A DNA stretch of 32,664 nt from Bacteroidota bacterium (GTDB lineage: Bacteria; Bacteroidota; Bacteroidia; Palsa-948): the NCBI GenBank assembly GCA_016213405.1, contig JACRAM010000009.1:1-32664 (forward strand), read 5' to 3'. Below the pieces are notes generated by a model. The model made no database searches, was not told the origin of the DNA, and saw only the letters and a list, made by a program, of their open reading frames with translations. Positions 12,583 through 31,452 of the stretch are shown in pieces. The translations under genes were made by a program, and so were the position numbers. Numbering within the stretch: the first letter of the stretch is position 1; every line of letters begins with the position of its first letter.

Positions 12583-12655
12583 GCACCCGTAGTTCAATGG
12601 ATAGAATATCTGGCTTCGGACCAGAGGGTTGGGGGTTCGAGTCCCTCCGGGTGCA
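12583..12655 (+). tRNA. tRNA-Arg (anticodon TCG)
   Basis: A complete cloverleaf can be folded. The acceptor arm GCACCCG pairs with CGGGTGC (12648-12654), with discriminator A. The anticodon stem TCTGG/CCAGA carries loop CTTCGGA, giving anticodon TCG, which reads CGA (Arg). The T arm has GGTTCGAGTCC. The 3' CCA is not encoded. Confidence 0.95.
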
Positions 12656-12737: not shown

Positions 12738-12819
12738 GCGGGCGTGGTGAAATTGGTAGACATACCAGACTTAGGATCTGGCGCTTCACGGCATGGGGGT
12801 TCGAGTCCCTCCGCCCGCA
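12738..12819 (+). tRNA. tRNA-Leu (anticodon TAG)
   Basis: A class II tRNA of 82 nt with the long variable arm expected for leucine. The acceptor GCGGGCG pairs with CGCCCGC (12812-12818). The anticodon stem CCAGA/TCTGG carries loop CTTAGGA, giving anticodon TAG, which reads CUA/CUG-type Leu codons. The T arm has GGTTCGAGTCC. No CCA is encoded. It follows tRNA-Arg by 82 nt and precedes tig. Confidence 0.95.
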
Positions 12820-14959: not shown

Positions 14960-15036
14960 AGGATTACACCGATTATGAAATGAGATTACACCGATGGCTG
15001 TTATCTGTGTAATCAAATAAATAATCGGTGTAATCG
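14960..15036. repeat. GATTACACCGAT inverted/direct repeat between clpP and clpX
   Basis: GATTACACCGATTAT (14964-14978) is followed by a second direct GATTACACCGAT and, at the far side, by ATAATCGGTGTAATC (about 15019-15034). The outer pair can form a 15-bp stem. It has the style of the other short dispersed elements in the window and could attenuate or stabilise the clpP-clpX message, which is an inference. Confidence 0.7.
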
Positions 15037-19160: not shown

Positions 19161-19667
19161 CTTTTGTATTATTTTAAATTTCTCTATCGGATTTGTGCTG
19201 TTCCAGATTGCTCCGAGAACGGCAACTCCTGCAAAACCAAGTTCACGGCAGGTTTCAATTTTGCCCTCGTCAATTCCGCCAAGGGCAATAGGAGCCCATC
19301 CCAAACCCTTCCCCATGGGAAGGGCTTTTTGTTTTTGCAGAAATGATTTTACTTCCTGCAAGTCGAACTTTGATTTGTATCCTGTTTTAGAAATGCTGTC
19401 AAATATTGGCGAGAGAAAAAATAAATCTCCCCTCCCTTGGGGAGGGGAAGGGGGTGGGCTCAATGAATGGAATTTTGAAAAATCGGAATGCAAAAAGATT
19501 TTGTTCTGGTGCTTTGTAGAAATTTGCTGAATGAAATCTTTAATTTCTTCTTTTGAAAAAGAAGGTTTGTGGATTTGAAACATTTCCAGTCCTTCTTCGA
19601 GCAAAGAATTTATGATCTCGTGTTCGTTGGGAGCAGGTGCGGGCAAGGAGATGACGATGAGTTTCAT
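19098..19667 (-). CDS. ThiE/TenI-like thiamine-phosphate-synthase-superfamily protein with palindromic inserts, probably degraded
   Basis: The 189-residue product begins and ends like a Bacteroidota TenI/ThiE-like protein: MKLIVISLPAP, EGLEMFQIHKPSFSKEEI and FLHSDF at the front, then FFLSPIFDSISKTGYKS, PIALGGIDEGKIETC and GFAGVAVLGAIWNS at the back. The middle of the barrel, where the family has its phosphate-contacting strands (about 50 residues), is missing. In its place is SLSPPPSPPQGRG, encoded by a palindromic repeat. A second palindrome adds LPMGKGLGWA just before PIALGG. The frame is intact, but loss of central strands makes activity doubtful. It precedes thiD with a 29-nt overlap, and its end lies in another repeat. 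Confidence 0.75.
   Translation of the reverse strand: MKLIVISLPAPAPNEHEIINSLLEEGLEMFQIHKPSFSKEEIKDFIQQISTKHQNKIFLHSDFSKFHSLSPPPSPPQGRGDLFFLSPIFDSISKTGYKSKFDLQEVKSFLQKQKALPMGKGLGWAPIALGGIDEGKIETCRELGFAGVAVLGAIWNSTNPIEKFKIIQKQIMNTEQGIPNNGVEILRHS
19306..19324. repeat. GC-rich palindromic mini-element, copy 2 (inside tenI-like gene)
   Basis: CCCTTCCC (19306-19313) and GGGAAGGG (19317-19324) form an 8-bp stem with loop CAT. In frame it encodes LPMGKGLGWA within the tenI-like gene. Confidence 0.75.
19427..19460. repeat. GC-rich palindromic mini-element, copy 3 (inside tenI-like gene)
   Basis: CCCCTCCC (19429-19436) and GGGAGGGG (19440-19447) pair around TTG, followed by GGGGGTGGG as in copy 1. 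It encodes SLSPPPSPPQGRG and replaces the middle of the protein. Confidence 0.8.
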
Positions 19668-19702
19668 TGTTCTCTGCTATTTTGCCGATTCAATTTCCTT
19701 CC

Positions 19703-19912
19703 TTTTTATAACAAAAGCGTTCTCTTTTGTAGCAAGAGCAATCCCTTTTGTAACAAAATCGTTCCCTTTTGTAGCAAGAGCAATCCCTTTTGTAACAAAA
19801 TCGTTCCCTTTTGTAGCAAGAGCAATCCCTTTTGTAGCAAAAGCCTTCCCTTTTGTAGCAGGAGCGTTCCCTTTTGTAGCAAAAGCCTTCCATTTTGTAA
19901 CAAACCGGGATG
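19703..19912. repeat. Ten exact 21-bp tandem units (CTTTTGTAGCAAGAGC type)
   Basis: Units start at 19703, 19724, 19745, 19766, 19787, 19808, 19829, 19850, 19871 and 19892, with no length change. Each is CTTTTGTAGCAAGAGC plus a five-base tail, AATCC or a variant; TAGCAA alternates with TAACAA in the middle copies. It lies in the 328-nt gap between the phosphatase and the tenI-like gene. Read on the minus strand it gives a Lys/Gly/Ala heptad repeat (ATKGIAL, ATKGNDF), but frames stay open on both strands simply because 21 is a multiple of three. Confidence 0.9.
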
Positions 19913-22436: not shown

Positions 22437-22503
22437 AATAATTTTTTTTAGTTGTTGGTTATTTATTGAAGAGCATTCTTTGAAAAAACATTACTTGTTG
22501 TTT

Positions 22504-22587
22504 GCGTTAGGGATAGAAGCGGAAATCCCCTGACGCTTCGGTCAGGGATTGTAGCGAATAGCCCGACCGCGTTTCGCGGGAACGCCC
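22504..22587. repeat. Structured Bacteroidota-type element GCGTTAGGGAT...GGGAACGCCC
   Basis: An 84-nt element. GCGTT (22504-22508) pairs with AACGC (22581-22585). Inside are GGGAT/ATCCC (22510-22514 with 22525-22529), CCCTGAC/GTCAGGG (22528-22534 with 22541-22547, partly exclusive with the former) and CCGCG/CGCGG (22567-22571 with 22575-22579). The bases GAAGCGG and TGTAGCGAATAGCCCG between the stems look like conserved spacers. From memory, near-identical elements are scattered through Bacteroidota genomes. It lies in the 205-nt gap between MNT and SLATT-like genes; the rest of that gap is a GTAGACAATGGGCAGTAGAC repeat. Confidence 0.7.
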
Positions 22588-25361: not shown

Positions 25362-25384
25362 AGAAAACCTAAGGAGAGAGAATA

Positions 25385-25475
25385 TTGCTTTCCCTTCGCA
25401 GGCATTACCCTGTTCAGGTTCAAAGGGTTCATCTCAGCCCTGATAGTATCGTCAGAGGCGCCCCCAAGTTTTCTG
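25385..25475 (-). promoter_or_regulatory. TPP riboswitch (THI box)
   Basis: On the minus strand the order GGGGGCGCC, then GGGCTGAGATGAACCC, then TTTGAACCTGAACAGGG, then TAATGCCTGCGAAGGGAA matches the thiamine-pyrophosphate aptamer: GGGGUGC, CUGAGA, ACCCUUUGAACCUGA, GGAUAAUGCC and AGCGNAGGGAA. It binds TPP and should repress the downstream thiS-thiC message. The stem AGAAAAC (25468-25474) with its match at 25362-25368 may extend the closing helix. The region before the thiS start is a repeat hairpin; no U-rich terminator is seen, so control may be at translation. Confidence 0.95.
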
Positions 25476-25563: not shown

Positions 25564-26220
25564 CTAACCTGTTACGCAGTGACAGCTGGGCGAGAAAAAA
25601 ATTTTTGCTTTTGGAAGAAGCTGGCGAATTCGTTCCTGCTGGTTGTCGTCAATCATGATGACGCGTAAATCCATCCAGCGAAGTTTTTTGAGTTTGGAAA
25701 GTTCTTCCGGAAAACTGGAAAGATCATTTTCCCACAAGTCAATTATTTCGATATTTTCCAAATCACCTATTCGTTTTGGAAGTGCCAGTAAATTATTTCG
25801 GGAGCCAACAAGTTTTTTCAGGTTTTTTAGTTCGCCAATTGAGTCAGGAAGGTATTGCAGTTTGTTTCCTGAAACATTCAGCACTTGAAGGTTGGTGAGC
25901 GTTCCGATTTGCTCTGGAAGCGAGTCAAGTTTGTTTTTGCTGATATTAAGTTCCTGAAGATTTTTGAACTTCAGAATTTCCACGGGAAAAACTTTCAGTT
26001 TCTTTTTGCTCAAATCAAGGCGGTAAACTTTGTCGGGATTCTGGAGAGCTTCCTGTAAGTTATTGTAAATGGGTGAAGCAAGGAGAGAAGCAGTGTCAAG
26101 AAGTGATTGTGCAGAAGCCCATCCCCATCCCTTCCCCAAGGGAAGGGAGAATAAAGCAAACACAAAAAATAAAACACTGAAGTGTAATCTGAATTGATAT
26201 TTATTATTTTGCTTTTTCAT
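25564..26220 (-). CDS. Secreted leucine-rich-repeat protein
   Basis: The 218-residue product has an N-terminal hydrophobic segment (FSVLFFVFALFS) as signal peptide, with a palindrome-derived LPLGKGWGWASAQS inserted right behind it. Residues about 65-185 are leucine-rich repeats of the LxxLxLxxNxLxxLPxxIxxL type, about five units (NLQELNISKNKLDSLPEQIG and similar). These make protein-protein interaction surfaces; no specific partner is evident. The C-terminus is short with CHC. It begins 6 nt after the ribF stop and is probably in the same transcript. Confidence 0.88.
   Translation of the reverse strand: MKKQNNKYQFRLHFSVLFFVFALFSLPLGKGWGWASAQSLLDTASLLASPIYNNLQEALQNPDKVYRLDLSKKKLKVFPVEILKFKNLQELNISKNKLDSLPEQIGTLTNLQVLNVSGNKLQYLPDSIGELKNLKKLVGSRNNLLALPKRIGDLENIEIIDLWENDLSSFPEELSKLKKLRWMDLRVIMIDDNQQERIRQLLPKAKIFFSPSCHCVTG
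26129..26147. repeat. GC-rich palindromic mini-element, copy 5 (inside LRR gene)
   Basis: CCCTTCCC (26129-26136) and GGGAAGGG (26140-26147), loop CAA. Encodes LPLGKGWGWA at the signal-peptide end of the leucine-rich-repeat protein. Confidence 0.8.
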
Positions 26221-26226
26221 TTTGTT

Positions 26227-27216
26227 TTAAACCCTCTCCCCTTGGGGGAGAGATGGAGAGGGGCTAAGTATCTTCAGTGTTTTTTCTTTATCTCCGTCAA
26301 TTGCTTTCTTCAGCGCTTCCATGTTCTCAAATTTTTTTTCATCTCTTAGTTTCTGTCTGAAAAAGATACGGATGTTTTCGCCATAAATGTCCTTTTCAAA
26401 ATCAAAGATGTTAACCTCGATGCTTTTTTTATGACCATTTATTCTATTGGAATCATTTCCTGTGGGATTAACAGTTGGATTGAAACCGATACTCATCATT
26501 CCGTTGTGCATTTTATTTTCTACTTGTACTGTTACTGCATAAACTCCATTTGCAGGAATCAGTTTGTGCTTGTCATCAATTTGAATGTTCGCAGTAGGAT
26601 ATCCCAATCCTTTGCCGATTCCTTTTCCTTTAACAACTTTTCCTTTGATAGAGTATTCGTATCCTAAAAATTTATTTGCGGTTTTGATATCACCGCTCTC
26701 CAGCGCCTTGCGGATTTTGGTGGAAGAGATTTCAATTTTATTAATGTCCTGCGCTGCGATTTTCTCCAGCTCGAAACCATATACGGTAGCAAGCTTTTTC
26801 AATTGCTGGAATGAGCCCTCTCTGTTTCTGCCGAAATGATGATTGTAACCGATGATGAGCTTTTTCGTTTTTATTTTGTTCACCAGAATATCACGCACGT
26901 ATTCCGTGTAGGTGAACCGCGAAAACTTTTTCGTAAACGGATGAACGATCAAATGCTCCACCCCAAGTTTTTCCAACAAATCTTTTTTCTCTTCTTCCGT
27001 GTTCAGGAGTTTCAAATCTTCGTCATCGGGAAAAAGAACCATGCGAGGGTGGGGATAAAAAGTAAGTATCACCGATTCTCCCTTGATTGTTTCCGCGCCT
27101 TCTTTCAACTGCTGAATTATTTTCTGGTGCCCCAGGTGCACGCCATCAAATGTGCCGATGGTCACTGCCGGATTCTTGGCGCCTTTAAATTGCTCTATGC
27201 TTTCGTAGACTTTCAT
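26227..27216 (-). CDS. ribF: Bifunctional riboflavin kinase / FAD synthetase
   Basis: RibF phosphorylates riboflavin to FMN and adenylates it to FAD. The 329-residue product has the N-terminal nucleotidyltransferase domain with TFDGVHLGHQ, FYPHPR, YNHHFGRNREG (about 124-134) and SSTKIRKAL (about 164-172), then the C-terminal kinase domain with GKGLGYPTAN (about 201-210), GVYAV and GFNPTV. All key motifs are present. Its final residues SPSPSLPQGERV come from a palindromic repeat and replace the usual tail. The start ATG at 27216 is clear. The LRR gene follows within 6 nt. Confidence 0.97.
   Translation of the reverse strand: MKVYESIEQFKGAKNPAVTIGTFDGVHLGHQKIIQQLKEGAETIKGESVILTFYPHPRMVLFPDDEDLKLLNTEEEKKDLLEKLGVEHLIVHPFTKKFSRFTYTEYVRDILVNKIKTKKLIIGYNHHFGRNREGSFQQLKKLATVYGFELEKIAAQDINKIEISSTKIRKALESGDIKTANKFLGYEYSIKGKVVKGKGIGKGLGYPTANIQIDDKHKLIPANGVYAVTVQVENKMHNGMMSIGFNPTVNPTGNDSNRINGHKKSIEVNIFDFEKDIYGENIRIFFRQKLRDEKKFENMEALKKAIDGDKEKTLKILSPSPSLPQGERV
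26232..26262. repeat. GC-rich palindromic mini-element, copy 6 (inside ribF 3' end)
   Basis: CTCTCCCC (26234-26241) and GGGGAGAG (26245-26252), loop TTG. It encodes the last residues of RibF (SPSPSLPQGERV), including the stop region. Confidence 0.75.
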
Positions 27217-27272
27217 TTGCCGTTATCAAATGTAAGAAATAACTGCAAAACATTTTTTGCCTCACCCCCAAA

Positions 27273-27292
27273 CCCTCTCCTCAAGGAGAGGG
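27273..27292. repeat. GC-rich palindromic mini-element, copy 7
   Basis: CCCTCTCC (27273-27280) and GGAGAGGG (27285-27292), loop TCAA, same as copy 4 and preceded by the same CTCACCCCCAA. Confidence 0.8.
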
Positions 27293-27318
27293 GAGAGATT
27301 GTGGGTTGGATTCTTTTA

Positions 27319-27458
27319 CCCCGACATAAATGTCGGGGCTATTAATATTTTTCTCCTATGGAGAAATTTACAACCCCCTTAATCCCCCTTTGTTAATGAG
27401 GATTTTCTCTTCGCTCCAGAGGAGCGAGATGTTAATAGCCCCGCGCTTTAGCGCGGGG
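27319..27458. repeat. Composite inverted REP-like (BIME-like) element
   Basis: Two perfect 9-bp hairpins, CCCCGACAT/ATGTCGGGG (27319-27338) and CCCCGCGCT/AGCGCGGGG (27439-27458), flank a central CGCTCC/GGAGCG hairpin (27412-27426). The inner flanks are complementary, GGGGCTATTAA on the left and TTAATAGCCCC on the right, so the halves are head-to-head copies of one element. This is the layout of REP/BIME sequences; no REP-associated transposase is in view. Confidence 0.75.
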
Positions 27459-27484
27459 AAAACGAAATGCCACCACAATATTTT

Positions 27485-27505
27485 CCCTCTCCCTGTGGGA
27501 GAGGG
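27485..27505. repeat. GC-rich palindromic mini-element, copy 8
   Basis: CCCTCTCCC (27485-27493) and GGGAGAGGG (27497-27505), loop TGT; a 9-bp perfect stem, upstream of atpD. Confidence 0.8.
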
Positions 27506-27645
27506 ATTAAAGGGTGAGGGATTTTGCGCGAAGGATTGAGCCATTTGTTTGAGCTCTTTTTGTGTTTCACAAAAAAGCGAGTGGCGAAAGCCTGACAGCG
27601 CGCCTCGCGGTGGCGCGCCCAAATGAAAAACCTGATAACTTTCAT

Positions 27646-27706: not shown

Positions 27707-29216
<1,510 letters not shown>

Positions 29217-29218
<2 letters not shown>

Positions 29219-29302
29219 CCAATTTGATAATTTGAAAATTACCCGATTTGAAAATGTGGATTCATTTTCAAATTTTCAAATTGATTAATTGACGAATTGG
29301 CT
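29217..29302. terminator. Inverted repeat at the atpD-nuoD convergent junction
   Basis: AGCCAATT (29217-29224) pairs with AATTGGCT (29295-29302), and inner AT-rich segments (ATAATTTGAAAAT and ATTTTCAAATT) add a second stem. It overlaps the atpD stop region and ends 2 nt from the nuoD stop, so it may terminate both genes. The AATTTGAAAATT motif is of the dispersed-repeat style. Confidence 0.5.
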
Positions 29303-29303
29303 G

Positions 29304-30506
29304 TTATGCATCCAGCTCCCCCGCAATCACATTCATCGCGCTCATCGTCAGGATGGCATCGGAAAGGAAAGCGCCTTTGATAATTTCAGGATATGCCTGG
29401 TAGTATATGAAACAGGGTCTGCGGAAGTGCAAACGGTATGCGCATCTGCTTCCATCGCTCATGAGATAAAAACCGAGTTCGCCATTTCCGCCTTCTACAG
29501 CGTGATACACTTCCCCTTTCGGAACTTCGTTTTCTCCCATCACAATTTTGAAATGGTAAATAAGGGCTTCCATATTATTATACACTTCTTCTTTCGGTGG
29601 GAGATAAAATTCAGGAACATTGGCATGAAATGGTCCGTCAGGAATATTAGCAATGGCTTGTTTGATGATGCTCAACGATTCCCACATTTCCTGCTCCCGC
29701 ACCATGAAGCGGTCGTATACATCACCGTTTTGTCCTATCGGAACAATAAATTTAAAATCCTGATAAGATGAATACGGATTCATCACGCGCACATCGTAAT
29801 CCACTCCCGTTGCACGAAGATTTGGTCCGGTGAAACCATAGTTAAGCGCACGCTCTGCTGAAATAGGTCCGCAACCAACTGTTCTATCCATAAAGATGCG
29901 GTTGCGTACCAGAAGATTTTCAAACTCTTCTAATACTCTTGGCAACTCATCGACTACACGTTTAATTTTTTTCCAGGTGGTTTCGGTAAAATCACGTTCC
30001 ATTCCTCCGATACGGCCAATGTTTGTTGTGAGGCGCGCCCCGCAGATTTCTTCAAAGACCTCGTAAATATGTTCGCGAACCTGCATTACATAAAGGAAAA
30101 CAGTCATTGCTCCACTATCGACACCAATTATGCTGTTGCAAACCAAATGATCTGCAATGCGTGAAAGCTCCATAATGATCACACGAAGATACTGCGCGCG
30201 TTTGGGAACTTCGCAGCCGATAAGTTTTTCAACCGTCATGTGCCAGCCCATGTTGTTGATAGGAGAGGAACAATAGTTAAGACGGTCAGTGAGAGTAGTA
30301 ACTTGATAAAAAGGTCTTCGCTCGGCAATTTTTTCAAATGCCCGATGGATATATCCGCATTCAGGCACCGCGTCCATAATTATTTCTCCGTCCATTTTCA
30401 GTACGTTCTGAAAAATTCCGTGCGTGGCGGGATGGGTAGGACCTAAGTTTAAAGTAGAATATTCCTTCTCTTTAATTTCCTCTTGTTTGTTTTTTGCCTC
30501 TACCAT
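29304..30506 (-). CDS. nuoD: NADH-quinone oxidoreductase subunit D
   Basis: NuoD, in the peripheral arm of complex I, helps form the quinone-binding site. The 400-residue product has LGPTHPATHG near the N-terminus, GYIHRAFEKIAERRP, LTDRLNYCSSP, RIADHLVCNS, GRIGGMERDF, and the C-terminal EGGNGELGFYLMSDGS and KGAFLSDAILTMSAMNVIAGELD. NuoD is separate from NuoC here. The ATG at 30506 starts the family region after about 20 charged residues. It is last of the nuo genes seen and is separated from nuoC by the four-helix-bundle gene. Confidence 0.97.
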   Translation of the reverse strand: MVEAKNKQEEIKEKEYSTLNLGPTHPATHGIFQNVLKMDGEIIMDAVPECGYIHRAFEKIAERRPFYQVTTLTDRLNYCSSPINNMGWHMTVEKLIGCEVPKRAQYLRVIIMELSRIADHLVCNSIIGVDSGAMTVFLYVMQVREHIYEVFEEICGARLTTNIGRIGGMERDFTETTWKKIKRVVDELPRVLEEFENLLVRNRIFMDRTVGCGPISAERALNYGFTGPNLRATGVDYDVRVMNPYSSYQDFKFIVPIGQNGDVYDRFMVREQEMWESLSIIKQAIANIPDGPFHANVPEFYLPPKEEVYNNMEALIYHFKIVMGENEVPKGEVYHAVEGGNGELGFYLMSDGSRCAYRLHFRRPCFIYYQAYPEIIKGAFLSDAILTMSAMNVIAGELDA

Positions 30507-30555
30507 ATCAATAAGTCAAAAATTTTAAAATCAAAATTCAAAAGTTAATACAAAA

Positions 30556-30906
30556 TCATTTTTTCAAGTTGATAATAATAGTCGCCAACACTTTTGAGAT
30601 TTCAAGTAATTCTTTTTTGTCGTCAGTTATTCTTTCTAATTTCAAATCAAATCCCTCACTGATTATATCTATCCAGTATCCTGATTCATTTGCAGATCGA
30701 AGTGATATTTCATAGAACCGAATCAACTCTTTCCTTGTGCTGCTTGCCTTCGCTTCTACTACATTCGCTCCAACAGATGTTCCGCTTCGCAATAATTGGT
30801 TGACAAGCGGAAAATCAATTTTGTTCTTTCTTAACTCTGCACACAACCTGATAATTCTTATCGCAAACTTTTTTGTTCTTTCCTTAATATCTTTTTCGTA
30901 CGCCAA
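30556..30906 (-). CDS. Four-helix-bundle protein (23S rRNA intervening-sequence type) inside the nuo operon
   Basis: The 116-residue product has the family signature QLLRSGTSVGANVVEAKAS near residues 38-56, followed by RKELIRFYEISLRSANESGYWI and a helical tail. This family (TIGR02436 type) was named for genes in 23S rRNA intervening sequences, but is also often free-standing; it forms pentameric or similar helical bundles and its role is unknown. It lies between nuoC and nuoD in the same orientation (49 nt to nuoD, 42 nt from nuoC). Both flanks carry short AT-rich repeats (CTTTTGACTTTTGACTT at about 30918-30935), so it looks like an insertion cassette. Confidence 0.9.
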   Translation of the reverse strand: MAYEKDIKERTKKFAIRIIRLCAELRKNKIDFPLVNQLLRSGTSVGANVVEAKASSTRKELIRFYEISLRSANESGYWIDIISEGFDLKLERITDDKKELLEISKVLATIIINLKK

Positions 30907-30948
30907 CTTTGTATTTCTTTTGACTTTTGACTTGTCTCTCTTTCTCTC

Positions 30949-31452
30949 TTACCTACCAAACATTGAATCGTTTTTATCCGTTCTTGTTCCATCTTCCAGT
31001 GCATATTCTTTTCTCATTGGATGGTAATTCATTTCATTCATATTTAAAATGCGTCTCAGATCAGGATGACCTTTAAAAATAATTCCGAAGAAATCGTATT
31101 CCTGCCTTTCCTGCCAGTTGGCGGAAGAAAAAAGAGGAGTTAACGTGGGAACTTCAGGGTCAGCAATCGGGAAAAAAGTTTTTAAGCGGATGCGCCAGTT
31201 TTTAGGCATGTTGTGCAATTGATACATTACGCCAAGTTCCTGTCCTTTGTTATCGGGAAAATGTAAGCCGCAAAGCGTTGTAAGAAATTCAAATCCCATT
31301 TCGGAATCTTCTTTCAAATACTTAACAATCTCAAAAAGCTTTTCCCTTTTTATAACGAAAACCGGAAAATCATAAAGCTGCTCGGCAGAAATAATTGCAT
31401 CACCGAATTTTGTTTTTAATTTTTCTTCTATGTATCGTAAAAGATTTTCCAC
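30949..31452 (-). CDS. nuoC: NADH-quinone oxidoreductase subunit C
   Basis: NuoC is the 30-kDa-type subunit that supports the quinone module. The 167-residue product has the family motif NWQERQEYDFFGIIFKGHPD followed by LRRI. The N-terminal half is the usual alpha/beta fold. It begins 3 nt after the nuoB stop and so is coupled to it. Confidence 0.95.
   Translation of the reverse strand: MENLLRYIEEKLKTKFGDAIISAEQLYDFPVFVIKREKLFEIVKYLKEDSEMGFEFLTTLCGLHFPDNKGQELGVMYQLHNMPKNWRIRLKTFFPIADPEVPTLTPLFSSANWQERQEYDFFGIIFKGHPDLRRILNMNEMNYHPMRKEYALEDGTRTDKNDSMFGR

Follow-up and report, generated by a model that had tools for sequence, protein, structure and literature searches.

An IVP gene between nuoC and nuoD

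The window (the whole stretch of DNA analysed here, 32,664 nucleotides from a Bacteroidota genome) carries a nuo gene cluster on the reverse strand. Its nuoC gene (30-kDa subunit; positions 30,949–31,452; PF00329, E = 9.1e-39) is the upstream and its nuoD gene (49-kDa subunit; 29,304–30,506; PF00346, E = 1.2e-106) the downstream cistron of a 442-bp element that extends from the nuoC stop codon to the nuoD start codon (30,507–30,948, reverse strand). The single family-matched ORF of this spacer, which holds no Y1 transposase, lies at 30,556–30,906 on the reverse strand, starts with TTG and encodes a protein of 116 residues. The nuoB and nuoA genes share the strand of this ORF, nuoC and nuoD. 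The nuo cluster ends after nuoD, and the next long ORF (27,710–29,218) is on the forward strand.

The encoded protein scores above the curated cut-offs of both profiles of the S23/IVP four-helix-bundle family, PF05635 (E = 2.1e-18; 66.9 bits, cut-off 33.8) and TIGR02436 (82.7 bits, cut-off 24). An AlphaFold2 model predicts four helices (pLDDT 92.6), and Foldseek places this model close to the Bacteroides thetaiotaomicron structure 2rld (TM 0.86–0.89) and to 2gsc (TM about 0.8); as predicted, the protein is a four-helix bundle like these two. The initial annotation of the locus, made from the sequence alone, had proposed an IVS-type protein, which the profile scores and the predicted fold bear out. 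The genome of the window (G000) encodes 23 family members above the Pfam cut-off.

The ORF is flanked by a 5′ arm of GTCAAAA-like heptamers (30,908–30,933, reverse strand; inverted-repeat alignment score 32), of which positions 30,917–30,933 have a period of 7 (2.4 copies), and by a 3′ arm (30,528–30,554, reverse strand) which, judged by alignment and by pairing in the predicted fold, repeats the 5′ arm imperfectly in inverted orientation. AT-rich repeats had been noted on both sides of the gene; they are present but were under-described, being inverted arms of 26–27 nt, and the check for terminal repeats at the element ends that the same note had proposed finds them in inverted orientation. 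Being imperfect, the arms escaped an exact-seed repeat search. A search of the window with 17 bases of the arm motif, allowing up to 3 mismatches, returned no further copy. Just 3′ of nuoD, positions 29,220–29,283 (no strand assigned) form a possible solo hairpin without an ORF (inverted arms scoring 35, period-8 arrays), which we infer to belong to the same class as the IVP unit.

Among 28 window ORFs hand-picked from the ORF list, the IVP ORF has the highest flank-pairing score (32, against 22 for the best of the 27 others), and none of 1296 control placements in related loci reaches 31. In the predicted RNA fold, the two arms pair with each other and would close the ORF in a loop. Taken as a whole, the predicted fold of the transcript is unremarkable in its energy (z = −1.56; 7 of 100 shuffles fold equally well), and 3 of 90 foreign 3′ flanks pair with the window 5′ flank as well as its own 3′ flank does. 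By predicted pairing, then, the window copy has the anatomy of an IVS, with an S23p-type ORF within a stem of terminal inverted repeats, and it sits between nuoC and nuoD instead of in an rRNA gene. Because the rRNA location that defines a 23S IVS was tested for and is lacking, we describe the unit as IVS-like by anatomy and not as an rRNA IVS.

Inverted repeats of another style, mostly C/G-rich, occur in the window at 26,116–26,265, 27,261–27,519, 19,292–19,461 and 14,962–15,035, and C-rich hairpins resembling them are found at some junctions in congeners. Tandem arrays with 21-, 42- and 63-bp units lie at 2,007–2,240 and 19,699–19,904. An Rfam scan placed a TPP riboswitch at 25,374–25,475 (reverse strand), a Flavo-1 RNA at 22,499–22,572 (forward strand) and two tRNAs at 12,583–12,655 and 12,738–12,819 (forward strand).

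The gene had been read as an insertion between nuoC and nuoD, and congeners support this: it is absent from this junction in G005, where the spacer is 42 nt, and in G006, where an ATG lies 3 nt past the nuoC stop codon. No target duplication is visible at the congeneric junctions compared, which are diverged enough that one could be missed. The initial annotation had added that finding the gene at the same position in distantly related genomes, without any trace of insertion, would refute this reading; the site does recur, in four families of the class (G000 and G004, f1; G025, f20; G087, f44; G091, f4), but each of these copies has arms. Judged by such sequence comparisons, the window insertion is neither recent nor unique to this genome. 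A nuoC match was found in 44 of 60 genomes, and junctions were read at 30 nuoC loci. At 23 of these, nuoD follows at −1 to 122 nt with no IVP gene between; three (the window, G004 and G025) hold an IVP gene before nuoD; one has a 303-nt spacer, one lies at a contig edge, and two have no nuoD after nuoC in the stretch examined.

Copy-specific inverted arms across the IVP family

Inverted arms specific to each copy (score of at least 25) are present in 130 of the 171 family members scored, which comprise 91 copies from the own genome and relatives and the best 80 of 587 relatives from named genomes and span many phyla; the other 41 score below 25. Just 38 of 4396 control placements overall reach the same score. 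The first set retains 91 distinct copies of 95 matches after duplicates and contig-end copies were dropped; the second was picked by closeness to the query, with three contig-end copies dropped and phylum labels taken from record titles.

In the first set, 69 of 91 copies score at least 25 and 53 at least 31, versus 8 and 0 of 1296 control placements. The arms are of low complexity, and mispaired flanks are a stricter control than control placements. The median pairing is 32 against 16 for mispaired flanks, 50 of 91 copies exceed the 99% level of mispaired flanks (31), and 44 pair best with their own partner when set against all 90 other partners. Compared in direct orientation, the flanks have a median of 17, and 8 of 91 copies exceed the 99% level. 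In the named set (best 80 of 587), 61 copies score at least 25 and 51 at least 31, versus 30 and 5 of 3100 controls; 32 of the 80 beat all 79 mispairings, direct orientation reaches 31 in 7 of the 80, and motifs shared by related copies raise the mispaired 99% level to 40.8. Broken down by group, these best 80 of 587 relatives score at least 25 in 8/8 Cyanobacteria, 14/14 Bacteroidota, 9/11 CPR bacteria, 5/8 Planctomycetes and only 9/20 Clostridia.

The arm motif varies from copy to copy. Over the 119 of 171 copies whose period was counted (arms shorter than 21 nt or scoring below 25 being left out), the best period is 7 in 72, 14 in 19 and 8 in 11, with no clear period in 13. Protein similarity and arm similarity are correlated over 130 copies (Mantel rho 0.228; at most 0.092 in 500 shuffles), a link that may come partly from shared base composition.

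No rRNA family reaches the Rfam gathering score in 101 loci, namely the window, 20 other own-genome loci (L081 and L082 being left out of the scan) and the best 80 of 587 named relatives. Two Planctomycetes loci (L135 and L159) have IVP genes among tRNA arrays, with 11 and 18 tRNA matches, all on the opposite strand. The IVP gene and both neighbors are co-directed in 74 of 91 copies of the first set, in 51 of the best 80 of 587 named relatives and in 19 of the 23 own-genome copies, as called by a simple ORF caller and given without a genome-wide baseline. Cyanobacterial copies often have neighbors on the opposite strand, and co-transcription is therefore not a condition for the presence of the unit.

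The dN/dS ratios of the IVP gene are 0.03–0.18 in 18 of 20 pairs, and low also among cyanobacterial copies with differing neighbors; these ratios are rough because dS is saturated in two pairs and above 1 in several more. They indicate that the protein is under purifying selection. The unit varies in location whereas its protein is conserved, which makes it probable that the protein serves the element.

Empty junctions, hairpins and units with differing flanks

Besides the window copy, the own genome has 22 copies; for 13 of these, we examined the corresponding junctions in six congeners, the remaining nine and the window copy being excluded by neighbor orientation or query length. We fetched 52 of the 78 possible junctions (13 × 6), those whose neighbors lie close together, with rearranged or unlisted neighbors uncounted. 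Fifty of the 52 were resolved and the gene is absent from 48: the 50 comprise 25 empty junctions (at most 30 nt), 2 filled junctions, 5 hairpins called by a shuffle criterion and 18 other spacers. At several empty junctions the two genes overlap (ATGA or TAATG), for instance at the sites corresponding to L002 (three congeners), L011 (three) and L076 (four), and loss of an element is therefore hard to invoke there. Three of the five hairpins (L208, L248 and L254) have heptamer-like arms and two (L209 and L240) are of another style. At L244, one congener retains an ORF remnant with an internal deletion, and at L227 and L254 arms with the motif of G000 were read by eye where the ORF is gone, L227 falling below the shuffle criterion for a hairpin. 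No very recent filled/empty pair was seen in the clade of the window.

Five cyanobacterial loci (L145, L155, L156, L169 and L177, from Cyanothece, two Symploca, a Xenococcaceae and Anabaena) share 80–88% DNA identity over 0.38–0.52 kb. The shared block ends 31–53 nt past the stop codon, within the 3′ arm, and the flanking genes differ. In four of the copies the similarity spans the leader up to the 5′ arm; against L156, it begins just 6–18 nt before the start codon.

Three Nostoc plasmids (L259, L264 and L265) carry a unit with (AATTCGC)n arms inside a cytosine methyltransferase gene, and the same gene is intact in L266–L268. About 0.3 kb of the methyltransferase gene is missing where the unit stands, whether in one step or more, and at the left break the intact gene contains the arm heptamer, CAATTCG. 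L265 has 3+3 heptamers versus 4+4, one fewer in each arm, and another Nostoc plasmid copy (L262) has a perfect 40-bp inverted repeat. As concerted change of arm length appears only in this one Nostoc trio, and no concerted change of copy number was found in Planktothrix or among AGAATTT arms, we do not claim it as a rule.

Plasmid copies have further neighbors of interest. On Planktothrix plasmids, an IVP gene with heptamer arms adjoins drmD (annotated as DISARM) and a restriction or methyltransferase gene (loci L257, L258 and L261, which include Dolichospermum), and on the Dolichospermum plasmid among these three loci it adjoins a helicase gene. In L260 and L263 (Anabaena and Nostoc plasmids), the IVP gene lies between cas2 and cas1 on the opposite strand, with arm scores of 25 and 61; IVP genes near cas genes are also mentioned in the available part of an earlier report (PMC3936711).

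We compared self-pairing with cross-pairing of the arms in 11 sets of related junctions. Self-pairing is 23–64 versus an average of 16.8 across copies in L010/L101/L102/L106, 21–45 versus 17.3 in L100/L111/L115, and also above cross-pairing in L083/L125, whereas most other sets keep the motif and have no such contrast (for example L126/L127 and L132/L146/L179). These comparisons suggest that, in some sets, arms at related junctions can be rewritten yet stay self-complementary.

The nuo lineage

With the window protein as query (E ≤ 1e-22), 395 genomes of the class yielded 15 copies in 13 genomes, all 15 in nuo operons. Four of the 80 named loci (best 80 of 587) also lie inside a nuo operon: L125–L127, the three closest matches, and L131, which stands at nuoF–nuoG and groups with the nuo lineage on the tree. 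All 19 copies found of this lineage are thus in nuo operons, at three junctions (nuoC–nuoD, 5; nuoD–nuoE, 4; nuoF–nuoG, 10), and G004 and G091 carry two each. Arm scores are 24–56 in 18 of these copies, two of them at 24, the 99% level of control placements; L131 scores 30. One G091 copy and L131 contain a stop codon.

The tree of the 19 copies, which has strong support on only 7 of its 21 inner branches, needs at least 5 junction changes. The nuoD–nuoE copies form one group (support 80/84). Topology testing rejects a tree that sets all nuoF–nuoG copies apart on one side (p = 0.009) but not trees uniting the nuoC–nuoD copies (p = 0.09) or the nuoC–nuoD and nuoD–nuoE copies (p = 0.06). If the copies have a common origin, their presence at three junctions requires at least two changes.

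Among the named loci, L176 and L189 are flanked by a nuoE-like or nuoB-like gene. In the window genome, L013 (G000:C20), from a different branch of the family, lies between genes read by eye as nuoI and nuoJ.

Discussion

We propose that the unit between nuoC and nuoD is an IVS-like stem-loop element outside rRNA, whose arms close an IVP ORF and which is, or once was, mobile; we consider this reading probable. The unit would consist, in order, of a 5′ heptamer arm, a short leader, the IVP ORF and an inverted heptamer arm. In a polycistronic RNA, the arms can pair; the ORF would then form a loop and the stem would bring the neighboring cistrons together at its base, and RNase III might cut it. 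Looping-out of this kind would allow an insertion at a tight operon junction to be tolerated, much as the IVS stem does in 23S rRNA. Comparison of loci suggests that the unit moves, since it appears as a block at new sites and also as solo hairpins or remnants, and the IVP protein may serve the element by recognizing its arms or stem. Against this reading count the lack of a mobilizer gene in the unit, of a visible target duplication and of a very recent filled/empty pair, the 41 of 171 copies with low arm scores, the low complexity of the arms, the unremarkable fold of the window copy and the nuo lineage, which did not roam.

As the nuo copies are confined to one operon, the lineage moves, if at all, within it, and domestication is a serious rival. 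IVP might have become a nuo regulator that binds a stem in the nuo mRNA and tunes its processing or the subunit ratio, related to mobile copies by ancestry alone. The occurrence of all 19 lineage copies found in nuo operons, an arm motif recognizable down to about 40–50% protein identity and dN/dS ratios of 0.08–0.18 in four nuo pairs agree with such a role, which nevertheless appears unlikely to us: the gene is missing at nuoC–nuoD in the congeners G005 and G006, 382 of the 395 class genomes (nuo-bearing or not) have no match at E ≤ 1e-22, two nuo copies (in G091 and L131) contain a stop, and the junction varies between relatives. Least probable by far is an ordinary small operon gene whose repeats are chance AT-rich spacers. 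Low-complexity DNA, a fold z of only −1.56 and the 3 of 90 foreign flanks that pair equally well with the window copy could be read in this way, but the counts of arm scores at control placements contradict it, as do the arms that, in some sets of related junctions, are rewritten but self-complementary.

How an IVS-like element of this kind would move can be considered separately. Matching heptamer hairpins might let host recombination or template switching carry the unit from one to another, with IVP acting elsewhere, for example in stabilizing RNA. This is conceivable, if doubtful: a search for RVT_1 genes found none in G000, which has 23 copies, or in 19 of the 27 genomes with at least 5, G015 has 12 IVP copies and no Y1 match, the left Nostoc break holds the arm heptamer CAATTCG and hairpins stand at some orthologous junctions, whereas the window has no further arm motif (17 bases, up to 3 mismatches) and the microhomology is known from one example only. 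Mobilization in trans by IS200/IS605-type Y1 transposases, as RAYTs mobilize REPINs, seems improbable. IVP and Y1 copy numbers do correlate over 60 genomes (Spearman 0.51, without control for genome size, with which IVP copy number itself correlates at 0.41), but the arms differ from copy to copy and the 12 IVP copies of G015 coexist with no Y1 match. All 8 Y1 matches in G000 are outside the unit. Two candidates are disfavored: movement driven by a reverse transcriptase, as G000 (95% complete) has no RVT_1 match, and strict dependence on a Y1 transposase, by the single genome G015.

More tentatively, and at somewhat less than an even chance, we suggest that the IVS-like units form a hitherto unrecognized, transposase-less class of mobile elements spread over many phyla, in which IVP recognizes arms that are rewritten yet complementary and whose ORF-less derivatives are one source of the dispersed heptamer repeats in Bacteroidota, Cyanobacteria and others. 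If this is true, IVS elements would leave rRNA and become multi-copy inhabitants of operons, a large nameless 'four helix bundle' family would gain a common setting, and heptamer repeats whose spread had no mechanism would have a testable source. A lineage kept in one operon but at three junctions is a natural experiment on selfish retention versus domestication.

Relation to known systems

REPINs, too, are short units of inverted repeats and have a gene-bearing relative, whose gene product, RAYT, is a Y1 transposase. The IVP four-helix bundle, in contrast, has no known catalytic activity, and the window unit lacks the Y1 transposase that REPIN/RAYT or IS200/IS605 units contain. The modeled IVP fold is similar to that of Avd from diversity-generating retroelements (8ub7, 8ube and 4dwl; TM 0.72–0.75, with weak Foldseek E-values of 0.3–1.1); those elements have a reverse transcriptase, whereas G000 (95% complete) has no RVT_1 match.

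Dispersed heptamer repeats include the cyanobacterial STRR. TAACTGA heptamers are dispersed in Beggiatoaceae, Cyanobacteria and Bacteroidetes, where the available part of the report considers horizontal transfer possible with no evident mechanism (PMC4679880), and GGGAATC heptamers, often as inverted pairs, are described in Xanthomonas (PMC4692102, in part). In the accessible portions of both reports, these arrays are mostly intergenic and sometimes inverted, and no link to IVP is described. In the open-access literature, we found no paper linking IVP genes to heptamer arms outside rRNA; the related IVS has so far been known from rRNA genes, and the occurrence of such units outside them appears to be new.

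IVP ORFs of CPR bacteria occur at a number of different insertion sites in the 16S and 23S rRNA genes; the part of that study available describes insertions in rRNA only and no arms (PMC11270868), whereas the units reported here lie outside rRNA and have arms. The closest parallel is the 23S IVS of Coxiella burnetii and Leptospira, which has in common with the window unit the protein family and the ORF-in-stem anatomy. According to the accessible text on Coxiella, its IVS is 428 nt long, with the S23p ORF in a loop closed by 28-bp terminal inverted repeats and tandem GACAGAT heptamers upstream of the ORF, and RNase III excises it (PMC4990558). The 23S IVS lies inside rRNA, whereas the units described here stand between protein genes, occur many times per genome and have arms that vary by copy; and while that paper regards in vivo production of S23p by Coxiella as unlikely (PMC4990558), the IVP ORF of the present units is under purifying selection.
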